Source: Allobosea caraganae | Lineage (GTDB): Bacteria > Pseudomonadota > Alphaproteobacteria > Rhizobiales > Beijerinckiaceae | Assembly: GCF_003351345.1 (NCBI RefSeq) | Contig: NZ_QQTO01000019.1 | Coordinates: forward strand, 930,001-994,000 | DNA length: 64,000 bases | Direction: 5' to 3' | Shown here: piece after piece, positions 1 to 11,189 of the stretch | Layout of the letters: every line of letters starts with the position of its first letter | How positions within the stretch are numbered: position 1 is the first letter of the stretch | The notes under the pieces: model-generated | What the model was told of the DNA's origin: nothing | The model's input: the letters and a program-made list of their open reading frames with translations, nothing else | The model's database searches: none | Translations under genes and position numbers: made by a program

Positions 1-287
1 AAGTTGCTGCGCAGCAATCCGATGGCGCAAAGCGTTCCCAGGGCCAGAGCGATCGCGGTCGAGAGTGCCGCAAGTTGCACCGAGGCGGCGACGACCGGCC
101 AGAGTTCGCGCGAGCGGCCGAGCGCCTGATACCAGCGCAGCGACCAGCTCGGCGCCGGCAAGGTGAAGACCGCGCTCGAGCCGAACGAGACCGCGACCGT
201 CACTACGAGCGGTGTCAGCAGGAAGACGACAGTGGCAATGGCAAGTAGCCAGACGGTGACGGAGGCGATGCGCTCGGTCAGGGTCAT
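1..287 (-). CDS. ABC transporter permease, PotC-like (partial, N-terminal part)
   Basis: This is the first 95 codons of an inner-membrane permease; the rest lies beyond the left edge. The translation starts MTLTERIASVTVWLLAIATV and holds one strong hydrophobic segment (about residues 10-35), then a periplasmic stretch with SWSLRWYQAL, typical of the PotC/second-permease class of spermidine/putrescine-type importers, and the start of a second membrane segment. Its ATG overlaps the stop codon of the upstream permease by four bases (ATGA), so the two are translationally coupled. It is the last visible gene of the minus-strand operon SBP, ATPase, permease, permease. The substrate cannot be told from the permease. 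Confidence 0.85.
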   Translation of the reverse strand, partial: MTLTERIASVTVWLLAIATVVFLLTPLVVTVAVSFGSSAVFTLPAPSWSLRWYQALGRSRELWPVVAASVQLAALSTAIALALGTLCAIGLLRSN

Positions 288-1120
288 GAGGCGCCTCCCA
301 GCCGCTTCGACAGGCTGGCGCTGGCGACCACGACGGCGACGGTGAGCACGAGCAGGACGACCGCCGTGGTCGAGCCGAGCTGCTCGTTGCGCATGAACAG
401 GAAGGAGCGGCCGGTCAGCGTCGCCAGGGTCTGGAAGCGGTCGCCGATCAGCAGGCTCGGGATGACATACATCGAGGCGGCCATCGAGAAGACGAAGGCG
501 ATGCCGGTGACGATGCCGGGCAAGGACAAGGGCAGCGCCACCTTGAAGAAGCGGTAGAAAGGCGAGGCGCCGAGCGTCGCCGCGGCCTCGCCAAGGCGTG
601 GGTCGATCAGCTTCAGCACCGAATAGATCGGCAGGATCATGAAGGGGACGAAGACGTTGGCGGCGCCGATGACGAGCCCGGCCTCGGTGAAGAGCAGGCG
701 CTGCGGCTCGTCCCAGAGCCCGATCCCGGTCATGAATTGCGAGACGATGCCATCGCGCCGCAGCACGATCTGCCAGGCGAAGGCCTTGACCACGACGCCG
801 ACCGAAAGCGGCAGGATGATCGCGACCAGGATCAGCGCCTGCATCGCGCCGCGGGTACGAGCGAGGGCAAGCGCCGTCGGATAGCCGATGACGAGGCAAA
901 GCAGCGTCACCAGCACCGAGATTCGCACGGTGTTGCCGATGACGATCCAGCTGAAGCCGTCGGAGAAGAAGCTGATGAATGGCGCCAGCGAGGGCACGCC
1001 GCCGACGAGCAGGCTGCGCCCGAGCAGGACGAGCAACGGCACGCCGTAGATCACGGCGATGTAGAGCACCGCCGGCAACGCAAGCAGCAGGACCGGGTCG
1101 AGGCGGCGGGCGGCGCTCAT
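284..1120 (-). CDS. ABC transporter permease, PotB-like
   Basis: A 278-residue inner-membrane permease of the binding-protein-dependent type. It has six hydrophobic segments and the cytoplasmic EAA loop LGEAAATLGASPFYRFFKVA followed by LPLSLPGI at about residues 175-205, which docks on the ATPase. The length is usual for PotB homologues. The start ATG overlaps the ATPase stop (1117-1120), and the stop overlaps the next permease start. Together with the SBP, the ATPase and the partial permease it makes a four-gene polyamine/opine-type importer. The divergent GntR and hydantoinase cluster suggests the ligand is a nitrogenous compound fed to those enzymes; this last step is inference. Confidence 0.88.
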   Translation of the reverse strand: MSAARRLDPVLLLALPAVLYIAVIYGVPLLVLLGRSLLVGGVPSLAPFISFFSDGFSWIVIGNTVRISVLVTLLCLVIGYPTALALARTRGAMQALILVAIILPLSVGVVVKAFAWQIVLRRDGIVSQFMTGIGLWDEPQRLLFTEAGLVIGAANVFVPFMILPIYSVLKLIDPRLGEAAATLGASPFYRFFKVALPLSLPGIVTGIAFVFSMAASMYVIPSLLIGDRFQTLATLTGRSFLFMRNEQLGSTTAVVLLVLTVAVVVASASLSKRLGGAS

Positions 1121-2193
1121 GGCGACGCGACCGCTGCCGGATAGACCAGCGTGTCCTCGACATCCCAGGACAGCTTCAGCTTGGTGCCGGGGCCGGCATC
1201 GGCCGGCAGTACCGGCGTCTCGACCAGGATCTGGCTGTCCTCGGGCGCGTGGAAATGCAGTTGCACGCGCGCGCCCTGGAAGGCGGCGTCAGCAAGCGGC
1301 GCCTCGATGCGGTTCGCCTTGTCGTGGCCGATGACCATGCGCTCCGGCCTGATGCCGAGCAGGACCGGGCTGCCCGGCAGGAAATTCGCCCTGGCGCGCA
1401 GCGACCCTGCCGCGGTCTCGACCGTGACCATGCCGTCGGCGGCTTCCGTCACCTTGCCCGGAAGCCGGGTCGAGAGGCCGACGAAGCCGAGCGCGAAGGG
1501 CGTCGCGGGCTGGTGGTAGATCTCGGCCGGCGTGCCGAGCTGCTCGATGCGGCCGGCATACATCACCGCAATCCGGTCGGACATGGTCAGCGCCTCGTCC
1601 TGGTCGTGCGTGACGAAGATCGCGGTGGTGCCGACATCGCGAAGGATGCGCTTGAGGTCGATCTGCATGGCTTCGCGCAGCTTGCGGTCGAGCGCCGAGA
1701 AGGGCTCGTCGAGCAGGAGCAGCTTCGGGCCGACGGCGAGGGCGCGGGCCACCGCGACGCGCTGCTGCTGGCCGCCCGAGAGCGCCTTGATCGAGCGCCC
1801 AGCGAAGGCGCTCATCTGCACCAGGCCGAGATATTTGGCCACAGTGGGCGCGATCTCGTCGCGCGGCGCCCCGCGCGCCTTCAGCCCGAAGGCGACGTTC
1901 TCGGCGACGCTGAGATGCGGGAAGAGCGCGTAGTTCTGGAAGACGACGCTGACGTCGCGCTTATGCGGCGGGCGGCGGGTGATGTCCTGCCCGTCGAGCG
2001 CGACCTTGCCCTGGTCGGGCGCCATCAGCCCGGCGACGATGCGCAGCAAGGTGGTCTTGCCGCAGCCGGATGGGCCGAGGAGCGAGATGAACTCGCCCCT
2101 GCCCATCGAGAGGTCGACGCCATCGAGCACGGTGGCGGCGCCAAAAGTCTTCGCCGCTCCCGCGACGCTGAGAAAGCCCGACCCCCCGCTCAT
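1117..2193 (-). CDS. ABC transporter ATP-binding protein, PotA-like
   Basis: A 358-residue ATPase that powers the importer. It has Walker A GPSGCGKTTLLR (about residues 40-50), a Q loop in VVFQNYALFPHL, signature ALSGGQQQRVAVARALA, Walker B LLLLDEPFSALD and the switch His in FVTHDQDEAL. A C-terminal TOBE-type domain (about 240-358) is typical of PotA/MalK/UgpC. I chose the ATG at 2193 because it lies four bases after the SBP stop and gives the usual MSG..LSV..KTFG beginning; the reading frame stays open further upstream but that part overlaps the SBP and is not Pot-like. It overlaps the permease start by four bases. Confidence 0.9.
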   Translation of the reverse strand: MSGGSGFLSVAGAAKTFGAATVLDGVDLSMGRGEFISLLGPSGCGKTTLLRIVAGLMAPDQGKVALDGQDITRRPPHKRDVSVVFQNYALFPHLSVAENVAFGLKARGAPRDEIAPTVAKYLGLVQMSAFAGRSIKALSGGQQQRVAVARALAVGPKLLLLDEPFSALDRKLREAMQIDLKRILRDVGTTAIFVTHDQDEALTMSDRIAVMYAGRIEQLGTPAEIYHQPATPFALGFVGLSTRLPGKVTEAADGMVTVETAAGSLRARANFLPGSPVLLGIRPERMVIGHDKANRIEAPLADAAFQGARVQLHFHAPEDSQILVETPVLPADAGPGTKLKLSWDVEDTLVYPAAVASP

Positions 2194-2197
2194 CCGC

Positions 2198-3250
2198 TCA
2201 GATCGCCATCTCGCGGTCCCAGCGCTTGATCCAGCCCTCGCGCTCGGCCGCGACGTTGGCCCAGTCGATCTGGTGGATCTTGATGTCGGCGGCGAGCCCG
2301 GCCGGGCGCGGCACCGCCTTGTTGGTCGCCAGCGAGAAGGTCGGCTCGGCGAGCTTGCTCTGGAAATCGGCGCCGAGCATCTCGTTGACATAGGCGAAGG
2401 CGAGCTCGGATTGCGGCGCGCCCTTGATCACCGCGATGCCGGACGGCATGGCGAAGACGCCTTCCTTGGGCGCGACGAGGTCGATCGGGGCGCCGGCCGC
2501 CTTGCGCTCCAGCGCGTAGGAGGACATGCCGCAGGCGATCATGTAGGCTTCGCCCTGCTCGAGGAGGTTATAGGCCTGCGGCTGCTGGGTGTAGATCGTC
2601 AGCAGGTTGGCCTTCAGCGTCGCGAGCTTCTTGAAGCCGGCATCGGTGTCCTTCTGCGCGGCGTCGATGGCAGCGCCGTTGGCGAGGTGCCCGGCCATGA
2701 AGATGTTGGGCAGGCCCTCGGTGTTCTGCAGCGAGGGGATGATGACGCGGCCCTTGTATTTCGGGTCGAACAGCTCGGCCCAGGAGGTCGGGGCCGTCTT
2801 CATCACGCTCTTGTTGTAGGCGATGCCGAGCCAGGGCTGCAGGTAGTTCGCCCACATCGCGTCCATATGGGTGGCGCCGGAGACGAGGTTGGCGAGGTTC
2901 GGCGCCTTGGCGGCGGTCAGCGGGTCGAGCAGGCCTTCCTTGACGGCGAGGATCATCACCGGATCGTCCATCTGGACGACCGACATGTACTGGCTGCCCT
3001 TGTTCTTCTGCATCTTCTCCAGGTTCACCAGCGAGCGCGTGCCCTCGAAGATGACCTTGCAATTGTACTTCTTCTCGAAGGCCGGAACCACGATCTGCTC
3101 GACCCAGGGCTTGTGCCCGGCCGCGCCGCCGACGACGAGCTCCTTGGTCTGCGCCCGCAGGACGGAGGGCATGGCGATCAGCGCCGTCGCGCCGGCACCG
3201 GTCTTCAGCAGCGTGCGGCGGCTCAGCCTGCCCTTGAAAAGCGTATCCAT
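2198..3250 (-). CDS. ABC transporter substrate-binding protein with Tat signal, PotD-like
   Basis: A 350-residue periplasmic binding protein. The N-terminus has a twin-arginine motif, RLSRRTLLK, then a hydrophobic stretch and a cleavage site near VLRAQ, so it is probably exported folded by Tat. The mature part follows the PotD/family-1 extracellular SBP pattern (ELVVGGAAGHKPWVEQ near the start, WANYLQPWLGIAYNK in the middle). The start at 3250 is preferred over an in-frame ATG 15 bases upstream because it puts the Tat motif at the usual distance. It is the first gene of the minus-strand operon and diverges from the GntR gene across about 300 bases. The ligand is unknown; the context suggests a hydantoin, ureide or similar amide. 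Confidence 0.88.
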   Translation of the reverse strand: MDTLFKGRLSRRTLLKTGAGATALIAMPSVLRAQTKELVVGGAAGHKPWVEQIVVPAFEKKYNCKVIFEGTRSLVNLEKMQKNKGSQYMSVVQMDDPVMILAVKEGLLDPLTAAKAPNLANLVSGATHMDAMWANYLQPWLGIAYNKSVMKTAPTSWAELFDPKYKGRVIIPSLQNTEGLPNIFMAGHLANGAAIDAAQKDTDAGFKKLATLKANLLTIYTQQPQAYNLLEQGEAYMIACGMSSYALERKAAGAPIDLVAPKEGVFAMPSGIAVIKGAPQSELAFAYVNEMLGADFQSKLAEPTFSLATNKAVPRPAGLAADIKIHQIDWANVAAEREGWIKRWDREMAI

Positions 3251-3439
3251 GATCCGGCCTCGCAAGTTCGCCGCGCTCCCAGATGGCGCGGATGCCGGAG
3301 GTGGTCAGCAATGGCTGTGCCAACTGCCGTGGGGTTGGGGAGATTAGATAAAACTCTTTTTTGCCAGATAGATAGATTGATTCCATGCCTGGAGCGCGTG
3401 CCGGGGTGATTTTGAAACGGGCTACGATGGGCGCTAATT

Positions 3440-3548: not shown

Positions 3549-4262
3549 ATGGACGAAGCTGCGATTCACGGAATCCTCTCCCGGCTGCTGATGGCCGGGA
3601 CCCTGCCGGGCAGCGTCAAGCTCGGCGAGCATCGGCTCGCCGAGATTTTCGGCGTCAGCCGCGAGCGCATCCGCAAGGTGCTGCACCGGCTCGGCCATGA
3701 GCGGCTCTTGGAGATCGTCAAGAACAGGGGCGCCTTCACGATCGAGCCTGACCTGCGCGAAGGGCGGGTGGTCTACGAGGCGCGCCGCATCCTCGAGAGC
3801 GGCATGGCCGCCCATCTCGCCGACAACCTGACCGAGGCGCAGATCGCGCGCCTGCGCCAGCATGTCGACGCGGAGGCCGATGCGCTGCGCAGCGGCGACC
3901 AGCCGACCTGGCTCAGGCTCTCGGCCGAGTTCCATTTCCTGCTGGCGGAGATGACCGAGAACCCGATCGTCCAGCGCCAGGCACATGAGCTGATCAGCCG
4001 GACCTTGATGCTGGTGAAGCGCTACGAGACTACCGCCGGCTCGGCCTGCGGCTGCGAGGAGCACCGCGCCATCTTCCGCGCGCTGGCGGCGCGCGAGCGC
4101 GGCAAGGCGGTGAAGGCGATGCACAGCCATCTCTCGCTGGTCGAGACGCGGTTACGGCCGACTATCTGCGTCGAGGAGGGACCGTCGCTGGAAGAGGTGA
4201 TCGCGCACGAGATCGCCGTCTATCGCGAGGCCAACGGCGCTGCGCTGATGGCGGCGGGCTAG
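3549..4262 (+). CDS. GntR-family transcriptional regulator with FCD domain
   Basis: A 237-residue regulator. It has an N-terminal winged helix (LGEHRLAEIFGVSRERIRKV, about residues 22-41, then LLEIVKNRGAF as the wing) and a helical C-terminal FCD ligand domain with the Asp/His metal-ligand pattern (EFHFLLAEM around 135 and EEHRAIFRAL near 177). FCD regulators usually sense small carboxylates or nitrogen compounds and repress neighbouring catabolic genes. It is divergent from the transporter and upstream of the hydantoinase cluster, so it probably controls both. The plausible effector is an organic acid or a ring-opened hydantoin product. Confidence 0.88.
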   Translation: MDEAAIHGILSRLLMAGTLPGSVKLGEHRLAEIFGVSRERIRKVLHRLGHERLLEIVKNRGAFTIEPDLREGRVVYEARRILESGMAAHLADNLTEAQIARLRQHVDAEADALRSGDQPTWLRLSAEFHFLLAEMTENPIVQRQAHELISRTLMLVKRYETTAGSACGCEEHRAIFRALAARERGKAVKAMHSHLSLVETRLRPTICVEEGPSLEEVIAHEIAVYREANGAALMAAG

Positions 4263-4416: not shown

Positions 4417-5187
4417 ATGCTGCGGATTGGAATGCTGACCCCGTCCTCGAACACCGTGCTGGAACCGGTGACGAGCGCGATGCTGGCGGGCGTCGGCGGC
4501 ATCAGCGCGCATTTCAGCCGCTTCAAGGTCACCGAGATCGCGCTCGACCAGAAGGCGCTCGCCCAGTTCGACGACAGCGAGATTTTGCGCGCGGCGGAGT
4601 TGCTGGCCCATGCCAAGGTCGACGTCATCGCCTGGAACGGCACCTCGGCGAGCTGGCTCGGCATCGAGCGCGACCGGGCGCTGGCCAAGCGCATCACGGC
4701 CGCGACCGGCATTCCCGCCTCGACCTGCATCCTGGCGCTGGTCGATATCCTCAAGCGCATCGGCGCGACCAGCCAGGGCCTGGTCTCGCCCTATACCGAC
4801 GACGTCCAGGCCCGCATCGTCGCGACCTTCGCCGCCGCGGGCATCGTGTGCCCGGCCGAGCGCCATCTCGGCATCCGCGACAATTTCTCCTTTGGAACGG
4901 TCGAAGAGGCCGCCATTGGCGGCATGATCCGCGAGGTCGCGGCGGCCGCGCCCGACGCCGTCACCATCCTCTGCACCAACATGAACGGCGCCCGGATCGC
5001 CGCGGAGCTTGAACGGGAAGACGGGCCGCTCCTGCTCGATTCCGTGGCAGTCACGCTCTGGGGCTGCCTCCAAGCGCTCGGCCAGCCCATGCACGATTTC
5101 GCCCGCTGGGGCCGCCTGTTCCGCGACCCGCGCCTTGCAAATCCATCGAAAGCCGATCGAGAGCCCGCATGCCCAATTTCGACCTGA
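4417..5187 (+). CDS. Arylmalonate decarboxylase / maleate isomerase-like protein (Asp/Glu racemase superfamily)
   Basis: A 256-residue cytosolic enzyme of the Asp/Glu racemase superfamily. The start MLRIGMLTPSSNTVLEP resembles maleate isomerases. The residues of the two catalytic positions are informative. The first cysteine position reads AWNGTSASW (G75, T76, S77) and the second is C186 in TILCTNMNG, with Y126 in SPYTDDV. In arylmalonate decarboxylase the matching residues are G74, T75, S76, Y126 and C188, which form its dioxyanion hole with a single cysteine, so the protein looks set up for decarboxylation or a one-base reaction rather than racemisation. The 3' end overlaps the hydantoinase start by 19 bases. 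The substrate is unknown. Confidence is high for the family and moderate for the mechanism. Confidence 0.8.
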   Translation: MLRIGMLTPSSNTVLEPVTSAMLAGVGGISAHFSRFKVTEIALDQKALAQFDDSEILRAAELLAHAKVDVIAWNGTSASWLGIERDRALAKRITAATGIPASTCILALVDILKRIGATSQGLVSPYTDDVQARIVATFAAAGIVCPAERHLGIRDNFSFGTVEEAAIGGMIREVAAAAPDAVTILCTNMNGARIAAELEREDGPLLLDSVAVTLWGCLQALGQPMHDFARWGRLFRDPRLANPSKADREPACPIST

Positions 5188-6578
5188 TCATCCGCAACGG
5201 CACGATCGCCACCGCGAGCGAGAGCTACAAGGCCGATATCGGCATCCGTGATGGCCGCATCGTCGCGATCGGCGAGGCGCTCACGGGAGCCGACGAGGTG
5301 GTCGACGCCACCGGCAAGCTGGTGCTGCCGGGTGGCATCGACAGCCATGTCCATATCTCGCAGCCCTCCGGGCCGGGCATCGTCATGGCCGATGATTTCG
5401 AGAGCGCGACGCGGGCAGCGGCCTTCGGCGGCAACAGCACCGTGATGCCCTATTGCCTGCAGCAGAAGGGCGAGTCGCTGCGCACCGTGCTGAAGGACTA
5501 TCACGCGCTGGCGCAGGGCAATTGCCACATCGACCATTCCTTCCACCTGATCATCTCCGACCCGACGGAGAGCGTGCTCGGCCAGGAGCTGCCCGCGCTG
5601 TTCGCCAATGGCTACACCTCGTTCAAGGTGTTCATGACCTATGAGGGCATGGCGCTCGACGACTACGAGATGCTGAGCGTGCTCGAAGTCGCGCGCGAGG
5701 CCGGCGCGCTCGTGCAGATCCACGCCGAGAACTACGACGCGATCCGCTTCCTCACCGACCGGCTGGAGCGCGCCGGCAAGACCGCACCGCATTTCCATGG
5801 CCGCTCGCGGCCGATCCCGGTCGAGCGCGAGGCGACGCATCGCGCGATCTCGCTGGCCGAGCTGATCGACGTGCCCATCATGATCGTCCATGTCTCCAAC
5901 CGCGAGGCGATGGAGGAGATCAGGCGGGCGCAGATGCGCGGCCTCAAGGTGATGGGCGAGACCTGCCCGCAATATCTCGTGCTGACCGAGTCCGACATGG
6001 ATCGTCCCGGCACCGAGGGCGCGAAATATGTCTGCTCGCCGCCGCCGCGCGACCATGCCAGCCAGGAGGCCTGCTGGGAGGGCCTGCAGCGGGGCGTCTT
6101 CTCGGTCTTCTCGTCCGACCATTGCCCGTTCCGCTACGAGGACGAGGCGGGCAAGCTGGCGCCGAAGGGGCGCTCTTCCTTCCGCTGGGTGCCGAACGGC
6201 ATTCCCGGCATCGAGACGCGCCTGCCGATCCTGTTCTCAGAAGGCGTGGTCAAGGGCCGGATCAGCCTGGAGCAGTTCGTGGCGCTGACCGCGACCAACC
6301 ACGCCAAAATCTACGGGCTCTCCGGCAAGGGCTCGATCGCGGTGGGCTACGATGCCGATATCGCGATCTGGGACCCGGAGCTGAAGCGGCCGATTCAGCA
6401 GGCCGGCCTGCACCATGGCGCCGACTACACGCCGTTCGAAGGCATCGAGATCACCGGCTGGCCGGTCTCGCTGCTGGTGCGCGGCAATTTCATCGTGCGC
6501 GAGGGTGAGCTCGTCGGCGCCAAGGGCGAGGGGCGCTACCTGCCGCGTGCGAAGCCGTTCCAGTCGCGGCCGTTGTGA
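5169..6578 (+). CDS. hydA: D-hydantoinase / dihydropyrimidinase
   Basis: A 469-residue cyclic amidohydrolase of the hydantoinase/dihydropyrimidinase family, which opens hydantoin or dihydropyrimidine rings to N-carbamoyl amino acids in the cytosol. The binuclear metal site is complete: H60 and H62 in DSHVHI, the carboxylated lysine K153 in SFKVFMTYEG, H185 in QIHAEN, H241 in IVHVSN and D317 in SSDHCPF. The length is normal. It lies between two racemase-superfamily genes and behind the GntR gene in one apparent operon. No N-carbamoyl amino-acid amidohydrolase is in the window, so the second step must be done elsewhere or the ring product has another fate. D- or L-preference cannot be read from sequence. 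Confidence 0.9.
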   Translation: MPNFDLIIRNGTIATASESYKADIGIRDGRIVAIGEALTGADEVVDATGKLVLPGGIDSHVHISQPSGPGIVMADDFESATRAAAFGGNSTVMPYCLQQKGESLRTVLKDYHALAQGNCHIDHSFHLIISDPTESVLGQELPALFANGYTSFKVFMTYEGMALDDYEMLSVLEVAREAGALVQIHAENYDAIRFLTDRLERAGKTAPHFHGRSRPIPVEREATHRAISLAELIDVPIMIVHVSNREAMEEIRRAQMRGLKVMGETCPQYLVLTESDMDRPGTEGAKYVCSPPPRDHASQEACWEGLQRGVFSVFSSDHCPFRYEDEAGKLAPKGRSSFRWVPNGIPGIETRLPILFSEGVVKGRISLEQFVALTATNHAKIYGLSGKGSIAVGYDADIAIWDPELKRPIQQAGLHHGADYTPFEGIEITGWPVSLLVRGNFIVREGELVGAKGEGRYLPRAKPFQSRPL

Positions 6579-6608: not shown

Positions 6609-7367
6609 ATGGGTGACCCTGTGCGCATCCTCGTCATCAATCCCAATACGAGCCCGGACATGACCGCGCTGGTCATGCGGGTGCTGGAGCCGCTCGCGCC
6701 GGCCGGCGTGGTGCTGTCCTCGGCCACCGGCCGTTTCGGCGCGCGCTACATCTCCAGCCGCAGCGCCGCGGCGATTGCCGGCCATGCCGCGCTCGATTGC
6801 TATGCCGAGCATGGCGGGGAGTGCGATGCGGTCTATCTCGCCTGCTTCGGCGATCCCGGGCTGCTGGCGCTGAAGGAGTTCGCCCGCGTGCCGGTCATCG
6901 GCATGGCGGAGGCGAGCTGCATCATCGCCGCACGACAGGCGGAGCGCTTCTCGATCGTCACCGGTGGCGAGCGCTGGGGGCCGATCCTGAGGGAGTTCGT
7001 AGCCTCGCTCGGCCTGGGCGAGGGGCTGGCCGCGGTCGAGACCGTCGCGCCGACCGGCGGCGAGATCGCGCGCGATCCCGATGCCGCGATCGCCCTGCTG
7101 GCGCAGGCCTGCCGGCTGACTGCCGAGCGCGATGGCGCGGGTGCGGTCATTCTTGGGGGCGCCGGGCTGGCGGGGCTGGCCGCACGCGTGCAGCCGCTCG
7201 TCGATATCCCGGTTATCTGCTCGGTCGAGGCCGGCTTCGGCGCGGTCATGGCAAGCGCGGCCTCGCCGCCAGCGAAGCCGGCGGCGGGCGATCTGGCCTT
7301 TCCCGCTCCGGTCGAGAGCCTCGCCCTCGCTCCGGCGCTTGCGGCGCTGCTCGCGCGGCCGGAATAG
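6609..7367 (+). CDS. Hydantoin racemase-like protein with only one catalytic cysteine
   Basis: A 252-residue protein of the Asp/Glu/hydantoin racemase family. It begins VRILVINPNTS, and the first catalytic cysteine is present in YLACFGDPG (C79). The second site, which in hydantoin racemases is a cysteine in an LGCAGM-type motif, here reads ILGGAGLAGL, so the cysteine is glycine (G184). Two-base racemisation therefore looks impaired. The ATG at 6609 is used; a GTG at 6621 would give the more usual MRILVINPNTS start and would bring C79 to the C75/C76 position of characterised enzymes. It is the last gene of the hydantoinase operon, 30 bases after hydA, and may be a decarboxylase, lyase or binding protein in that pathway. 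Confidence 0.82.
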   Translation: MGDPVRILVINPNTSPDMTALVMRVLEPLAPAGVVLSSATGRFGARYISSRSAAAIAGHAALDCYAEHGGECDAVYLACFGDPGLLALKEFARVPVIGMAEASCIIAARQAERFSIVTGGERWGPILREFVASLGLGEGLAAVETVAPTGGEIARDPDAAIALLAQACRLTAERDGAGAVILGGAGLAGLAARVQPLVDIPVICSVEAGFGAVMASAASPPAKPAAGDLAFPAPVESLALAPALAALLARPE

Positions 7368-7388: not shown

Positions 7389-7910
7389 CTATGCCGGGCT
7401 TGCGGCGAGCCGGGCGGTTCTGATCACGGCCCATTCGCTGATCGGGACGTCCTGGCCGGAGCGCACGACGCAGAGCCGGTCGAAGGCGATTGGCCGTCCG
7501 GCCAGCATGCGCTGGAACTCCTGCGCCGCCTCGGCCTTGGGGCTGGGCGGAACGAAGCCGTAGAGCAGCGAGACATGCGGCATGAAGGCCTCTGCCGCCT
7601 CGGGTTCCAGATGCTGCTTCAGCTGCGCCAAGGGCACGGCCACGGCGAAGCGCGCATAGAACGAGCGGAAATAGGCGTCGCTGGTCTCGACGCGGGCGAC
7701 CGCTTCCGAGAAGGCCGGGACGGCGCTTGCCGCCTCCGCGATCGCCGCGTCCAACGCGGCGACAGGCAGGTCGGTATCGCCCCGCACGGTGAGGTGCGGC
7801 GTGAAAACGGGCGTGCCGAAACGCCCGCTGAGATCGGCTACCAAGCCGGCTAGGAACTGGCCGTCCGCGGGGTTCGGCATCAACCAGATCGAGTGGATTT
7901 CGACTGACAT
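7389..7910 (-). CDS. 2H phosphoesterase, cyclic phosphodiesterase-like
   Basis: A 173-residue cytosolic protein of the 2H phosphoesterase superfamily. It shows the two H-x-T/S signatures, PHLTV (H39) and PHVSL (H112), about 70 residues apart, and the compact length of cyclic nucleotide phosphodiesterase/RNA-ligase-like members. These proteins hydrolyse 2',3'- or 1'',2''-cyclic phosphates. The start ATG at 7910 gives MSVEIHSIWLMP, typical for plant-type CPDase homologues; the frame is open further upstream but has no recognisable content. It converges with the hydantoin operon and diverges from the next ABC operon, so it seems to be a stand-alone gene. Its physiological substrate is unknown. 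Confidence 0.75.
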   Translation of the reverse strand: MSVEIHSIWLMPNPADGQFLAGLVADLSGRFGTPVFTPHLTVRGDTDLPVAALDAAIAEAASAVPAFSEAVARVETSDAYFRSFYARFAVAVPLAQLKQHLEPEAAEAFMPHVSLLYGFVPPSPKAEAAQEFQRMLAGRPIAFDRLCVVRSGQDVPISEWAVIRTARLAASPA

Positions 7911-7997
7911 CAAGGCTTCACAAAGCTGTTGCACATGGGCGCCGGTGTCCGGTATGTTTTTTCCAAGCGTGCCAGAAAATGGATGATTTATTCCATA

Positions 7998-9146
7998 ATG
8001 CTGGAACAAGATCGCGATAAGGGAGAAGGCCTTTTGCAGGCGGGATTGCAAGACAATCCGCGCTCGGGCGCGGCTATCAGCGTGCGCGGGCTGCATGTCG
8101 CCTATGGCGGCACGCGCGTTCTGCACGGCGTCGACCTCGATTTCACGCCGGGCAGCTTCACTGCGCTCCTGGGCTCCTCCGGTTGCGGCAAGACCACCTT
8201 GCTGCGCTCGCTGAGCGGCTTCGTGCCGGTCCAGTCCGGCTCGATCCTGGTCGGCGGCCGGGATGTCGCATCGCTGCCGCCGGAGAAGCGTGGTATGGCG
8301 ATGGTGTTCCAGTCCTATGCGCTCTGGCCGCATATGACCGTGCTGCAGAATATCGGCTACGGCTTGAAGCTGCGCGGCGCCTCCAGCGCCGAGATCGCCA
8401 CCAAGGTCGCCGCGATGCTCGAATTCCTGGGCCTGCCCGGATATGAGAGCCGCAAGGTCACCGCGCTTTCGGGTGGGCAGCGCCAGCGCGTCGCGCTCGG
8501 CCGGGCGCTCGCCATCGACCCCGGCATCCTGCTGCTCGACGAGCCGCTCTCCAACCTCGACGCCAAGATCCGCATGACGATGCGGCACGAGATCCGCGCG
8601 ATCCAGCAGCGGCTCGGCCTCACCGCCGTCCACGTCACGCATGACCGCGAGGAGGCCATGACCATGGCCGACCGGCTGGTGATCATGCAGGCGGGGCGGA
8701 TCGCGCAGGTCGGCACGCCCGAAGAGGTCTATGACCGCCCGGCGACCGCCTTCGTCGCGAATTTCATGGGCGCCGAGAACGTCCTGCCGGTCCGCGTCGA
8801 GCGCTCGGGGCAGGGCGCCTCGCTGCATGCGGGCGGGGCCTCGGCCAGCCTGGCGGCATCACCCTCCGCCGCTTTTCCGGCCGGAGAGGCCGTCGCCTAT
8901 TTCCGCGACGACGTCGCGCGCCTGGACGCGGTCGACGCGCCGGCCTCCGGCGACCTGGTCGTGCCCGGGCTGATCGCCGCCCGCGCCTATCCGGGCGGAG
9001 TCTACCGTTACCGCGTGGAGGCCGCCGGCCGTGAGATCACGGTCGACGACGCCACCCGCCACGAACTCGGAACGAAGGTCGGGCTGCGCATTCCCGTGCA
9101 GCGCCTTCACATCTTCCCGGCGACCGAGGCCGGGATTGCTGCCTGA
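7998..9146 (+). CDS. ABC transporter ATP-binding protein (PotA/FbpC-like)
   Basis: An approximately 382-residue ATPase. Walker A LGSSGCGKTTLLRS, Q loop MVFQSYALWPHM, signature LSGGQRQRVALGRALA, Walker B ILLLDEPLSNLD and switch HVTHDREEAM are all intact, and a TOBE-like C-terminal domain follows (about residues 240-382). The start is uncertain. The ATG at 7998 has no ribosome site, while an in-frame TTG at 8034 is preceded by GGGAGAAGG at 8021-8029, the best ribosome site in the region, and gives a 370-residue protein starting before AISVRGLHVAYGG. It is the first gene of a complete importer: ATPase, SBP, permease, permease. Confidence 0.87.
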   Translation: MLEQDRDKGEGLLQAGLQDNPRSGAAISVRGLHVAYGGTRVLHGVDLDFTPGSFTALLGSSGCGKTTLLRSLSGFVPVQSGSILVGGRDVASLPPEKRGMAMVFQSYALWPHMTVLQNIGYGLKLRGASSAEIATKVAAMLEFLGLPGYESRKVTALSGGQRQRVALGRALAIDPGILLLDEPLSNLDAKIRMTMRHEIRAIQQRLGLTAVHVTHDREEAMTMADRLVIMQAGRIAQVGTPEEVYDRPATAFVANFMGAENVLPVRVERSGQGASLHAGGASASLAASPSAAFPAGEAVAYFRDDVARLDAVDAPASGDLVVPGLIAARAYPGGVYRYRVEAAGREITVDDATRHELGTKVGLRIPVQRLHIFPATEAGIAA

Positions 9147-9160
9147 CAGGGGTTAGTCCA

Positions 9161-10291
9161 ATGCGCATCCTCACGATTGCCTGCTCGATCGCAGCGCTGA
9201 TGGCGGCTTCGCCGTTGTCCGCGCAGACCTTGAACGTCGCCACCGCCGGCGACCAGAACATGGTCGACTACGTCAAGGATTATCTCGGGCCGATGTTCGA
9301 GAAGTCCCATCCGGGCGTGAAGGTCGTTTCCGTCGGAACCGGCCCGGGCGATTCCGGCTCCCAGAAGATCTACGAGAAGCTCGACGCTCAGAAGGCCGGC
9401 AACGCGACCGATTTCGACGTCGTCGTCATCCACCAGAAGGCCGCCGGCACGATGGTGAAGGAAGGCCTGCTCGCCAAGTACACCGACAAGGTCGACACCT
9501 CGAAGATGGTCTCCAGCGAGTCGGCCAAGAACTCGCTCGGCTCCGACGTCTCGGGCTTCGTCATCCCGATGTTCCAGTCGCAGACTGCGCTGGCCTACAA
9601 TGCCGACCTGCTGAAGACCCCGCCGAACACCTTCGCCGAGCTGAAGGATTGGGCCGCGAAGAACCCGAAGCAGTTCGGCTATAACGGCATCAAGGGCGGC
9701 ATGTCCGGCGTCGCCTTCGTCACCGGCTGGGTCTACGCCTTCGGCGGCGACTCCGACAAGCTGATCAAGGGCCCGTACGATCCGGCCGTGAAGGCGAGCT
9801 GGGACAAGGCTCTCGGCGAGCTCAAGGACTTCAACAAGAACGTCATCATCACCCCCGGCAATGCCGGCACGCTGGACATGCTGAACCGCGGCGAGATCGC
9901 GATCGGCCCGGTCTGGGTCGACATGTTCTATTCCTGGCAGGCCGACGGCAAGCTGCCGCCGAACATGAAGCTCAAGCTCGCTGCTCCCGGCATGCCCGGC
10001 CAGCCGATGTACTACGCCGTGCCGGAGAAGACCGCCAACCGCAAGCTCGCGGAAGAGTTCATCGCGCTCGCCACCAGCCCGCAGGTGCAGGCTGACGGCA
10101 TCGTCAAGAAGTTCAACTGGTATCCGGGCATCGACGCCAAGAACCTCGAAGGCAAGCTCGACCAGGCCGCCTGGAACAAGCTCTTCACCGACATCACCCC
10201 GGCCGACCTCTCCTCTAAGGGGAAGTCCTTCCCGATCGCGCCCTACTTCAACGACATTCTCGAGAGCTACGAGAAGAAGGTCGCGAACTGA
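9161..10291 (+). CDS. ABC transporter substrate-binding protein (extracellular family 1)
   Basis: A 376-residue secreted binding protein. It has a Sec signal peptide of about 20 residues ending SPLSAQ, then TLNVATAGDQNMVDYVKDYL, the usual first strand and helix of family-1 SBPs of the iron, spermidine or sulfate type. The mature part is rich in lysine and aromatic residues (FGYNGIKGGMSG, VGPVWVDMFYSW-like region). The codon use is strongly biased to C-ending codons, suggesting high expression. It lies 14 bases after the ATPase and is followed by a strong hairpin (10307-10330) before the permeases, as expected when the binding protein is made in excess. The ligand is not identifiable. Confidence 0.88.
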   Translation: MRILTIACSIAALMAASPLSAQTLNVATAGDQNMVDYVKDYLGPMFEKSHPGVKVVSVGTGPGDSGSQKIYEKLDAQKAGNATDFDVVVIHQKAAGTMVKEGLLAKYTDKVDTSKMVSSESAKNSLGSDVSGFVIPMFQSQTALAYNADLLKTPPNTFAELKDWAAKNPKQFGYNGIKGGMSGVAFVTGWVYAFGGDSDKLIKGPYDPAVKASWDKALGELKDFNKNVIITPGNAGTLDMLNRGEIAIGPVWVDMFYSWQADGKLPPNMKLKLAAPGMPGQPMYYAVPEKTANRKLAEEFIALATSPQVQADGIVKKFNWYPGIDAKNLEGKLDQAAWNKLFTDITPADLSSKGKSFPIAPYFNDILESYEKKVAN

Positions 10292-10306
10292 GCCTTCCCG
10301 TCAACC

Positions 10307-10330
10307 GCGGCCCAGCACCAGCTGGGCCGC
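10307..10330. promoter_or_regulatory. Intercistronic stem-loop between SBP and permease genes
   Basis: GCGGCCCAGC, loop ACCA, GCTGGGCCGC form a perfect 10-base-pair stem 16 bases after the SBP stop codon. No U-run follows, so it is more likely an RNA-stabilising or partial-termination hairpin that keeps SBP mRNA above permease mRNA, as known for malE-malF type operons. Confidence 0.65.
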
Positions 10331-10355
10331 ACTTTCTCCTGATCGGCGCTTGCCA

Positions 10356-11189
10356 ATGCTGTCTCAACGCCAACTGGCGCTGGTCCTGATCGCGCCGGGC
10401 CTCTTCCTGGTCGCGGCGCTCTTCCTCTACCCGCTCGTCTTCTCGCTGATCTCGGCCTTCACCCGGCCTGACGGCTCGTTCACGCTCGAATGGTTCGCCA
10501 AGGCCTACGAGCTCTATTCCGGCGACATCGTCTTCACGATCGTCATCGTCCTGGCCTCCTGCGTGCTGACGGCGGTGGCCGCGATCGTGATTGCCGGCAC
10601 GCTGACGCTGGGCGAGAACCCGTGGATCGTCGGCACGCTGAAGGCGCTCTACCGCTGGCCGCTCTTCATCCCGTTCATCGTCGCGGCGCAGTGCATGCGC
10701 ACCTTCCTCGCCAAGAACGGCTTGATGAACAACACCTTCGTCTCGCTCGGGCTGATGGAGCCCTTGAGCGCGATCAGCTTCCTCGACTGGCGCGGCATCA
10801 TCGCCACCTTCGTCTGGAAGCAGACGCCCTTCGTCGCCCTGCTGCTCGCCGGCGCGCTCGCCTCGATCGACCGGGCGACGCTCGAGGCCGGCCGCAACCT
10901 CGGCGCCTCGCGGGCGAGGGTGATGCTGGAGCTGGCGCTGCCGCAGGTGATGCCGACGCTGCTCGTCGCGCTCGTGCTCTCCTTCGTGACGATGCTCTCG
11001 GTGCTCTCGGTGCCGATGATGGTCGCAGGCTCGCAGCCGACCATGCTGACCGTCGACATGGCCTTCCGCATCAACGCCTATGGCGACTACGCCACCGCCA
11101 ATGCGCTCGGCGTCATCACCTACCTGATCAGCGCCGGCGCCGCGATCATCTACCTGAAGCGCGGCATGAACCAGGAGGCGACGTCATGA
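10356..11189 (+). CDS. ABC transporter permease
   Basis: A 277-residue inner-membrane permease with six hydrophobic segments; the first is LALVLIAPGLFLVAALF. The EAA loop is LEAGRNLGASRARVMLELAL then PQVMP (about residues 172-195). The ATG at 10356 is chosen over a TTG six bases upstream. The end overlaps the next permease start in an ATGA. It is the partner of the ATPase at 7998 and the SBP at 9161. Confidence 0.88.
   Translation: MLSQRQLALVLIAPGLFLVAALFLYPLVFSLISAFTRPDGSFTLEWFAKAYELYSGDIVFTIVIVLASCVLTAVAAIVIAGTLTLGENPWIVGTLKALYRWPLFIPFIVAAQCMRTFLAKNGLMNNTFVSLGLMEPLSAISFLDWRGIIATFVWKQTPFVALLLAGALASIDRATLEAGRNLGASRARVMLELALPQVMPTLLVALVLSFVTMLSVLSVPMMVAGSQPTMLTVDMAFRINAYGDYATANALGVITYLISAGAAIIYLKRGMNQEATS

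Follow-up and report, generated by a model that had tools for sequence, protein, structure and literature searches.

What does a single-cysteine protein of the arylmalonate decarboxylase (AMDase) kind do beside a hydantoinase gene? The question is raised by a gene of Allobosea caraganae in a 64,000-nucleotide stretch of contig NZ_QQTO01000019.1 (positions 930,001 to 994,000), the whole of which is called the window here. An earlier note on this DNA had read the product as a decarboxylase of the AMDase type within a hydantoin cluster.

Cofactor-free decarboxylases are rare and are prized as biocatalysts. To our knowledge, AMDase, with G74 and C188, is the only characterized enzyme with a single-cysteine arrangement of this kind. 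According to Maimanakos et al. 2016 (PMC4996985), four AMDases had been characterized before that study. A literature search, which left subscription papers largely outside, returned no publication that pairs arylmalonate decarboxylase with hydantoinase and none that pairs a cofactor-free decarboxylase with hydantoin. Searches on maleate isomerase residues and on imides brought up nothing of use here.

The locus and its genes

The gene is flanked by a regulator, a hydantoinase, a racemase homologue and two ABC transporters (Table 1). Its product, the 4417-5187 protein, is the one PF17645 match found in a search of the source genome. The nearest named relative is encoded by Bosea sp. BK604 and shares 89% identity. 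Across the genus, 32 of 67 genomes contain some match at an E value of 0.001; the gene is considered accessory because only ten of the matches reach 56% identity. PADLOC gave no match that would indicate a role in defence.

Table 1. Features of the locus in positions of the window; codon coordinates were calculated by arithmetic from the start of the open reading frame (ORF).
Feature	Position	Strand	Basis or remark
ABC transporter permease (PotB/PotH-like)	284..1120	-	Profile matches
ABC transporter ATP-binding protein	1117..2391 (ORF as listed)	-	Scanned as 1117-2067
ABC transporter solute-binding protein, divergent operon	2198..3265	-	Profile matches
GntR/FCD-type regulator, 5' of the 4417-5187 gene	3549..4262	+	Profile matches
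Single-cysteine Amdase-family (PF17645) protein, 256 aa	4417..5187	+	ORF confirmed; sequence, profile and fold
N12 codon, PSSN motif	4450..4452	+	AMDase has Ala here; the P. putida maleate isomerase of known structure has Asn
N74-G75-T76-S77 codons	4636..4647	+	Gly where most relatives carry the first catalytic Cys
Y126 codon	4792..4794	+	AMDase dioxyanion-hole position
N156 codon	4882..4884	+	Aligned with V156 in the leaving-group pocket of AMDase; the maleate isomerase NdpH also has Asn
C186-T187-N188 codons	4972..4980	+	The one catalytic Cys and its neighbours
D-hydantoinase/dihydropyrimidinase family cyclic amidohydrolase	5169..6578	+	Start overlaps the end of the 4417-5187 gene
Asp/Glu/hydantoin racemase homologue, 3' of the hydantoinase gene	6609..7367	+	C79 at the first site, Gly at the second (GGAGLAG)
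Second ABC transporter (ATPase, binding protein, permease), downstream	7929..11189	+	Profile matches

The hydantoinase has its metal ligands in place and scores 759.9 bits on PRK13404 (cut-off 647) and 530.6 bits on the D-hydantoinase model (cut-off 393). The true start of the ABC ATP-binding ORF probably lies near 2193. It is uncertain whether the second ABC transporter belongs to the same pathway as the 4417-5187 gene. Between the racemase homologue and this transporter lies a small ORF (7389-7910, minus strand; 174 aa from the ATG of MSVEIHSIW), which by eye is like a cyclic phosphodiesterase/2H-type protein.

The DNA directly left of the window, locus L206, encodes a PuuE-like cyclic amidohydrolase of the polysaccharide-deacetylase family (L206:10565-11488; 317 bits against an equivalog cut-off of 424.6). 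A 92% homologue is found in the Bosea BK604 locus, and the protein is present in 6 of the 80 family loci (the best 80 of 192). A racemase homologue without Cys at either site is also encoded there.

Active-site residues and their conservation

A phmmer comparison with AMDase (3dg9/3ip8) gives 45.8 bits (E 6e-11) and sets G75-T76-S77 over G74-T75-S76, Y126 over Y126, and C186 over C188. The same mapping is obtained from a multiple alignment by way of L082, an AMDase homologue that scores above the equivalog cut-off, and so the five-residue match described in the earlier note stands. All 81 sequences compared, namely the window protein and the best 80 of 192 relatives, share W73-N74-G75-T76-S77, Y126, and C186-T187-N188. 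This set under-samples divergent members, and Bradyrhizobium contributes 30 of the 80 loci. P9, S10, S11, N12, R35, H150, and N156 are identical in the same 81. The single-cysteine site with Gly in the first position, also claimed in the note, is therefore common to all of them. A Cys near position 75, which the note had named as contrary evidence, is absent from the sequence of the protein.

Four of the five matched residues are widespread. Among 47 Amdase-family sequences outside the group, the Thr is found in 42, the Ser in 32, the Tyr in 44, and the Cys in 42, so these residues are taken as features of the superfamily. The first site is occupied by Cys in 41 of the 47 and by Gly in 3. The 47 rows exclude L082, and the short L126 (132 aa) was omitted from one alignment. 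Judged by these alignments, Gly75 is the only one of the five residues that discriminates the group.

At the position of D208, all 34 core rows and the four sister rows listed have Asp, and 41 of the 47 outside rows have Ser or Thr. Allantoin racemase sequences have Asp at this position too, in agreement with a ureide ligand. Every one of the 34 core rows has H150, and the 47 mostly have Gly or Ser in its place. H150 might serve as a second acid/base, a role that would argue for a racemase.

The four invariant Asn residues N12, N74, N156, and N188 align opposite A17, M73, V156, and G190 of AMDase; N12 and N156 are common to maleate isomerase in the alignment. According to PMC12661438, the substrate of allantoin racemase is bonded by an Asn that lies early in the fold. 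Aligned by eye, this Asn appears equivalent to N12. The Asn set and D208 would suit an aryl ligand less well than one with an amide or ureide group. The idea that the invariant R35 takes the place of AMDase L40 was dropped, as the 40-48 segment aligns differently in two alignments and an ungapped reading sets R35 opposite G37 instead.

Profile scores, family tree, and predicted fold

The Pfam family PF17645 (Amdase) matches the protein with 70.8 bits, above its cut-off of 25.9. The same model scores higher on EutA (81.4 bits) and on the annotated maleate isomerase NdpH (77.0 bits), and its name is therefore not diagnostic of AMDase. More specific models fall far short: the AMDase equivalog NF052327 gives 62.1 bits against a cut-off of 225, and the EutA model TIGR02990 gives 70.4 bits against 318.

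Criteria for AMDases are listed in Table 4 of Maimanakos et al. 2016 (PMC4996985), where criterion 10 is the pair G74 and C188. Both residues of this pair are present (G75, C186), as are the dioxyanion-hole residues T75, S76, and Y126 (T76, S77, Y126), which are also common in the superfamily. P14 is kept as P9. Three residues depart from AMDase: P15 is replaced by S10, G189 by T187, and V156 by N156. Of the hydrophobic-pocket residues, M159 reads as Phe, and the segment with L40, V43, and Y48 is placed differently by two alignments. The motifs LMGTSLSF and ILLSCGGL are missing, and WNGTSASW and TILCTNMN are found instead. The AMDase pocket that destabilizes the leaving carboxylate is hydrophobic, according to PMC12576825; in place of its V156, all 81 sequences (the window and the best 80 of 192) have Asn. 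By the sequence features tested, the 4417-5187 protein is judged not to be an AMDase.

In a tree of 88 rows, the window's family is joined on one side by a WNGSKGG group (L122-L125), a WNATRG group (L127, L128, L131), and L149, with support of 100/100. AMDases, EutA, and NdpH are on the opposite side, and the placement of NdpH is unsure because its branch is very long. Forcing the window's family and the AMDases into one clade costs 45.7 log units and is rejected (p-AU 5.4e-7, AU test on a chosen subset of 39 of the 88 rows). AMDase function is therefore not simply transferable to the window's family.

The tree is unrooted and has no outgroup. The first-site states Gly/Ala, Cys, and other need only three changes on it, and L103 and L084, both outside the AMDases, also carry Gly at this site. 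For these reasons, the idea that Gly arose convergently with AMDase was dropped; on the distribution of states, Gly may be an old shared one.

Several relatives have layouts of their own. Members of the WNATRG group have Ala at the first site and Ser at the second, are without Tyr126, and keep N12, N74, and N156; a non-racemase function is possible for this sister group. L085, L096, and L108, from another Amdase-family group, have Gly at the second site and a Cys shifted by one residue ahead of the usual first site, which reads as a mirror-image single-cysteine layout. L103, outside both the AMDases and the window's family, has the first-site sequence GGTSAS and a single Cys, at the second site.

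The AlphaFold2 model of the protein has a mean pLDDT of 95.7. In VIA-align, the top matches are maleate isomerases with Z scores of 31.1, 30.9, 30.9, and 30.5 (4FQ5 31.1, 2XEC 30.9, 4FQ7 30.5), and the match to 4FQ5 has an rmsd of 2.0 over 237 residues. Six AMDase entries range from 24.8 to 29.4 (3IXL 29.4, 3DG9 29.3, four others 24.8-25.7), and allantoin racemases reach 15-17. The predicted fold is thus slightly nearer to maleate isomerase than to AMDase in the model. Of the checks proposed in the earlier note, alignment bore out the residue mapping to AMDase, and structure prediction gave maleate isomerase as the closest fold (Z 31.1 against 29.4). The note's assignment to an AMDase-type decarboxylase finds no support in the equivalog score, the changes at P15, G189, and V156, the fold comparison, or the rejected clade.

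Linkage to hydantoinase genes

A hydantoinase gene, called at an identity of at least 40% over 90 aa, is present in 58 of the 80 family loci (the best 80 of 192) within flanks of up to 8 kb. None is found in 20 control loci of other Amdase-family genes or in nine sister-group loci, two of which (L156, L157) have no tree placement. Against the controls, the difference has a Fisher p of 1e-9, computed on loci that are not independent (30 of the 80 are Bradyrhizobium). The linkage is observed under 15 of the 22 genus-or-higher names among these 80, in both Alpha- and Betaproteobacteria. It also holds in five of eight close genus loci, some of them from genomes already among the 80, and in one of four plasmid relatives (L147). 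Counting any hydantoinase match, 59 loci have one; 55 of these have it on the same strand, and in 26 it follows directly downstream at a distance of no more than 120 bases. In an alignment of 70 hydantoinase-type sequences, which includes duplicates and other amidohydrolases of the genome, five of the six metal-ligand positions are identical in all 70 and the sixth in 69. The linkage of the single-cysteine subfamily to hydantoinase is real.

The remaining 22 of the 80 loci have no hydantoinase within the fetched flanks, and in ten of the 80 neither hydantoinase nor HyuB nor amidase was found; the full 16.7 kb is covered in five of the ten, and the other five are shorter than 10 kb. An amidase neighbour is found in 13 of the 80 family loci against none of the 20 controls. 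HyuAB was considered as an alternative ring opener and set aside, with HyuB in 6 of 80 family loci against 4 of 20 controls and hence no enrichment.

The cluster in the window departs from the usual hydantoin operon. In loci of this family and of related groups, 43 racemase-like rows were found, which represent 41 genes (one is split and one was entered twice). Both Cys residues are kept in one of these genes (L063) and the pair is missing in 40, most of which have neither, with Ala and Gly at the two sites. The pair-less homologues are thus improbable candidates for ordinary hydantoin racemases. All 14 Burkholderia and Caballeronia loci have the hydantoinase, and in none of them does the fetched DNA show a racemase homologue. 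Scans of ten window proteins and of six upstream L206 proteins gave no carbamoylase. One M20 query matched in 1 of the 80 family loci (the best 80 of 192), and M20 and CN_hydrolase are absent from the 25 commonest Pfam families of 125 neighbour proteins, drawn from 204 clusters and singletons. For the hydantoin cluster of the earlier note, the hydantoinase linkage is confirmed; the racemase homologue is without its Cys pair, and a carbamoylase did not turn up among the window proteins scanned.

The window cluster contrasts with a second one in the source genome, on contig C38:124000-142000 (L205). This cluster is canonical-looking and encodes another hydantoinase of the PRK13404 type (701.8 bits, 48% identical), a two-Cys racemase, an M20 hydantoinase/carbamoylase-family amidase, and a TRZ/ATZ-type hydrolase.

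Proposed reaction and alternatives

The best-supported statement is that the protein belongs to a distinct single-cysteine subfamily, linked to hydantoinase and with an Asn-rich pocket, and, with putative residue roles, would transfer a proton on one face of an enolate. The reading tentatively preferred here goes further: a cofactor-free enzyme of the Amdase/maleate-isomerase fold whose one-face proton transfer may accompany the decarboxylation of a malonate-like ureido or amide acid. T76, S77, and Y126 would hold the substrate carboxylate as an enediolate, and C186 would move a proton on a single face. On the opposite, empty side, Gly75 would leave room for a leaving group, and N12, N74, N156, and N188 would bind the amide or ureido arm. 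Decarboxylation is placed ahead of other reactions because AMDase is the characterized precedent for this layout and because of the room left by Gly75. The substrate would be a malonate-like acid with a ureido or amide group. This acid would be made from, or would become, the substrate of the hydantoinase, and candidates are hydantoin-5-carboxylate and a 2-ureidomalonate-type acid. A further proposal, possible if doubtful, is a new cofactor-free decarboxylase family, found across Alpha- and Betaproteobacteria, that removes CO2 from ureido- or hydantoin-carboxylates. It would combine the single-Cys layout of AMDase with an Asn-rich, maleate-isomerase-like pocket, in a hydantoinase pathway without an obvious carbamoylase and beside pair-less racemase homologues.

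An unbalanced racemase or epimerase is rather unlikely. C186 and a non-Cys partner, H150 or another polar residue, would invert a hydantoin or N-carbamoyl acid and so replace the activity that the neighbouring racemase homologue has lost. A racemase is expected in hydantoin clusters, the co-encoded homologues are without the dyad in all but one of 41 genes, and H150 has the conservation described above; unbalanced Thr/Cys pairs exist, as in EcL-DER (PMC12661438). However, Gly, found at the first site in all 81 sequences, cannot move a proton, and PMC10156859 reports that C75A of NozR abolished detectable interconversion. The Burkholderia and Caballeronia loci also tell against replacement, with hydantoinase there and no racemase homologue in the fetched DNA. 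An enzyme like maleate isomerase, with C186 acting on an unsaturated half-amide or diacid released when cyclic imides are broken down (maleamate or maleate type), is unlikely. The best structural matches of the protein are maleate isomerases (Z 30.5-31.1 against 29.4 and 29.3 for the best AMDases), PSSN and Asn 156 are shared with them, imidases are reported among hydantoinase-family enzymes, and amidase genes are enriched nearby. Against this, the nucleophilic first Cys of these enzymes is Gly in every one of the 81, and T76 and S77 stand where NdpH has Leu-Val. In 2XED, according to its title, the first Cys carries the succinyl group as succinyl-cysteine; we take this residue to be Cys76.

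A lyase, in which C186 takes the alpha proton and the Gly75 face is the exit for urea, ammonia, or water, is quite improbable. It would explain the apparently absent carbamoylase, and the single M20 match in 80 loci and the absence of M20 and CN_hydrolase from the 25 commonest neighbour families agree with it, but neighbours of the amidase, alpha/beta hydrolase, or beta-lactamase families could supply the missing hydrolysis. We know of no lyase in the Amdase/maleate-isomerase fold family. A true arylmalonate decarboxylase that acts on aryl or alkyl malonates is the least probable of the alternatives and hardly credible. The GTS/Y/C alignment and the Pfam Amdase score above cut-off speak for it; EutA and NdpH score higher on the same Pfam model, the equivalog model is missed, the pocket features differ, and the clade is rejected.

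With the preferred reading, decarboxylation of a ureido or amide acid, the 4417-5187 protein would carry out an uncharacterised cofactor-free step, which the sequence evidence suggests belongs to the breakdown of ring-shaped nitrogen compounds. If a hydantoinase-linked, Asn-rich single-Cys family is confirmed, it would widen cofactor-free decarboxylation to ureide and amide substrates and place it in a metabolic setting. For such operons, neither the Pfam name 'Arylmalonate decarboxylase' nor the label 'hydantoin racemase' is a reliable guide. A testable prediction is that relatives of Bosea, Bradyrhizobium, and Burkholderia have an as yet undescribed pathway for N-heterocycles.

Comparison with known systems

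AMDase (EC 4.1.1.76; 3DG9, 3IP8) is similar to the protein in fold, first-site Gly, T-S-Y dioxyanion residues, and a single catalytic Cys. It differs in that P15, A17, M73, V156, and G189 of AMDase are Ser, Asn, Asn, Asn, and Thr here. The genomic context reported for AMDases in PMC4996985 is TTT, TRAP, and mandelate racemase, whereas the context here is hydantoinase.

Maleate cis-trans isomerase (2XEC/2XED, 4FQ5/4FQ7, NdpH) has the nearest fold and shares PSSN, Asn 156, Tyr 126, and the second Cys. Its members possess two catalytic Cys residues, the first of which is Gly in 81 of 81 sequences here (the window and the best 80 of 192), and they are 23-26% identical to the 4417-5187 protein.

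EutA of ectoine utilization (TIGR02990) is also a member of the Amdase family, with a similar score (70.4 bits), the T-S residues, the Tyr, and the second Cys. Both Cys residues are present in EutA (L145, L132), whereas the first is missing here. Ectoine genes were not found among the ten window proteins scanned.

Hydantoin and allantoin racemases (3QVJ, 5LG5; PF01177) belong to the same fold superfamily (Z 15-17) and share Asp at the 208 position. KpAllR and its relatives use a Cys pair, according to PMC12661438, whereas only the second Cys is kept in the 4417-5187 protein.
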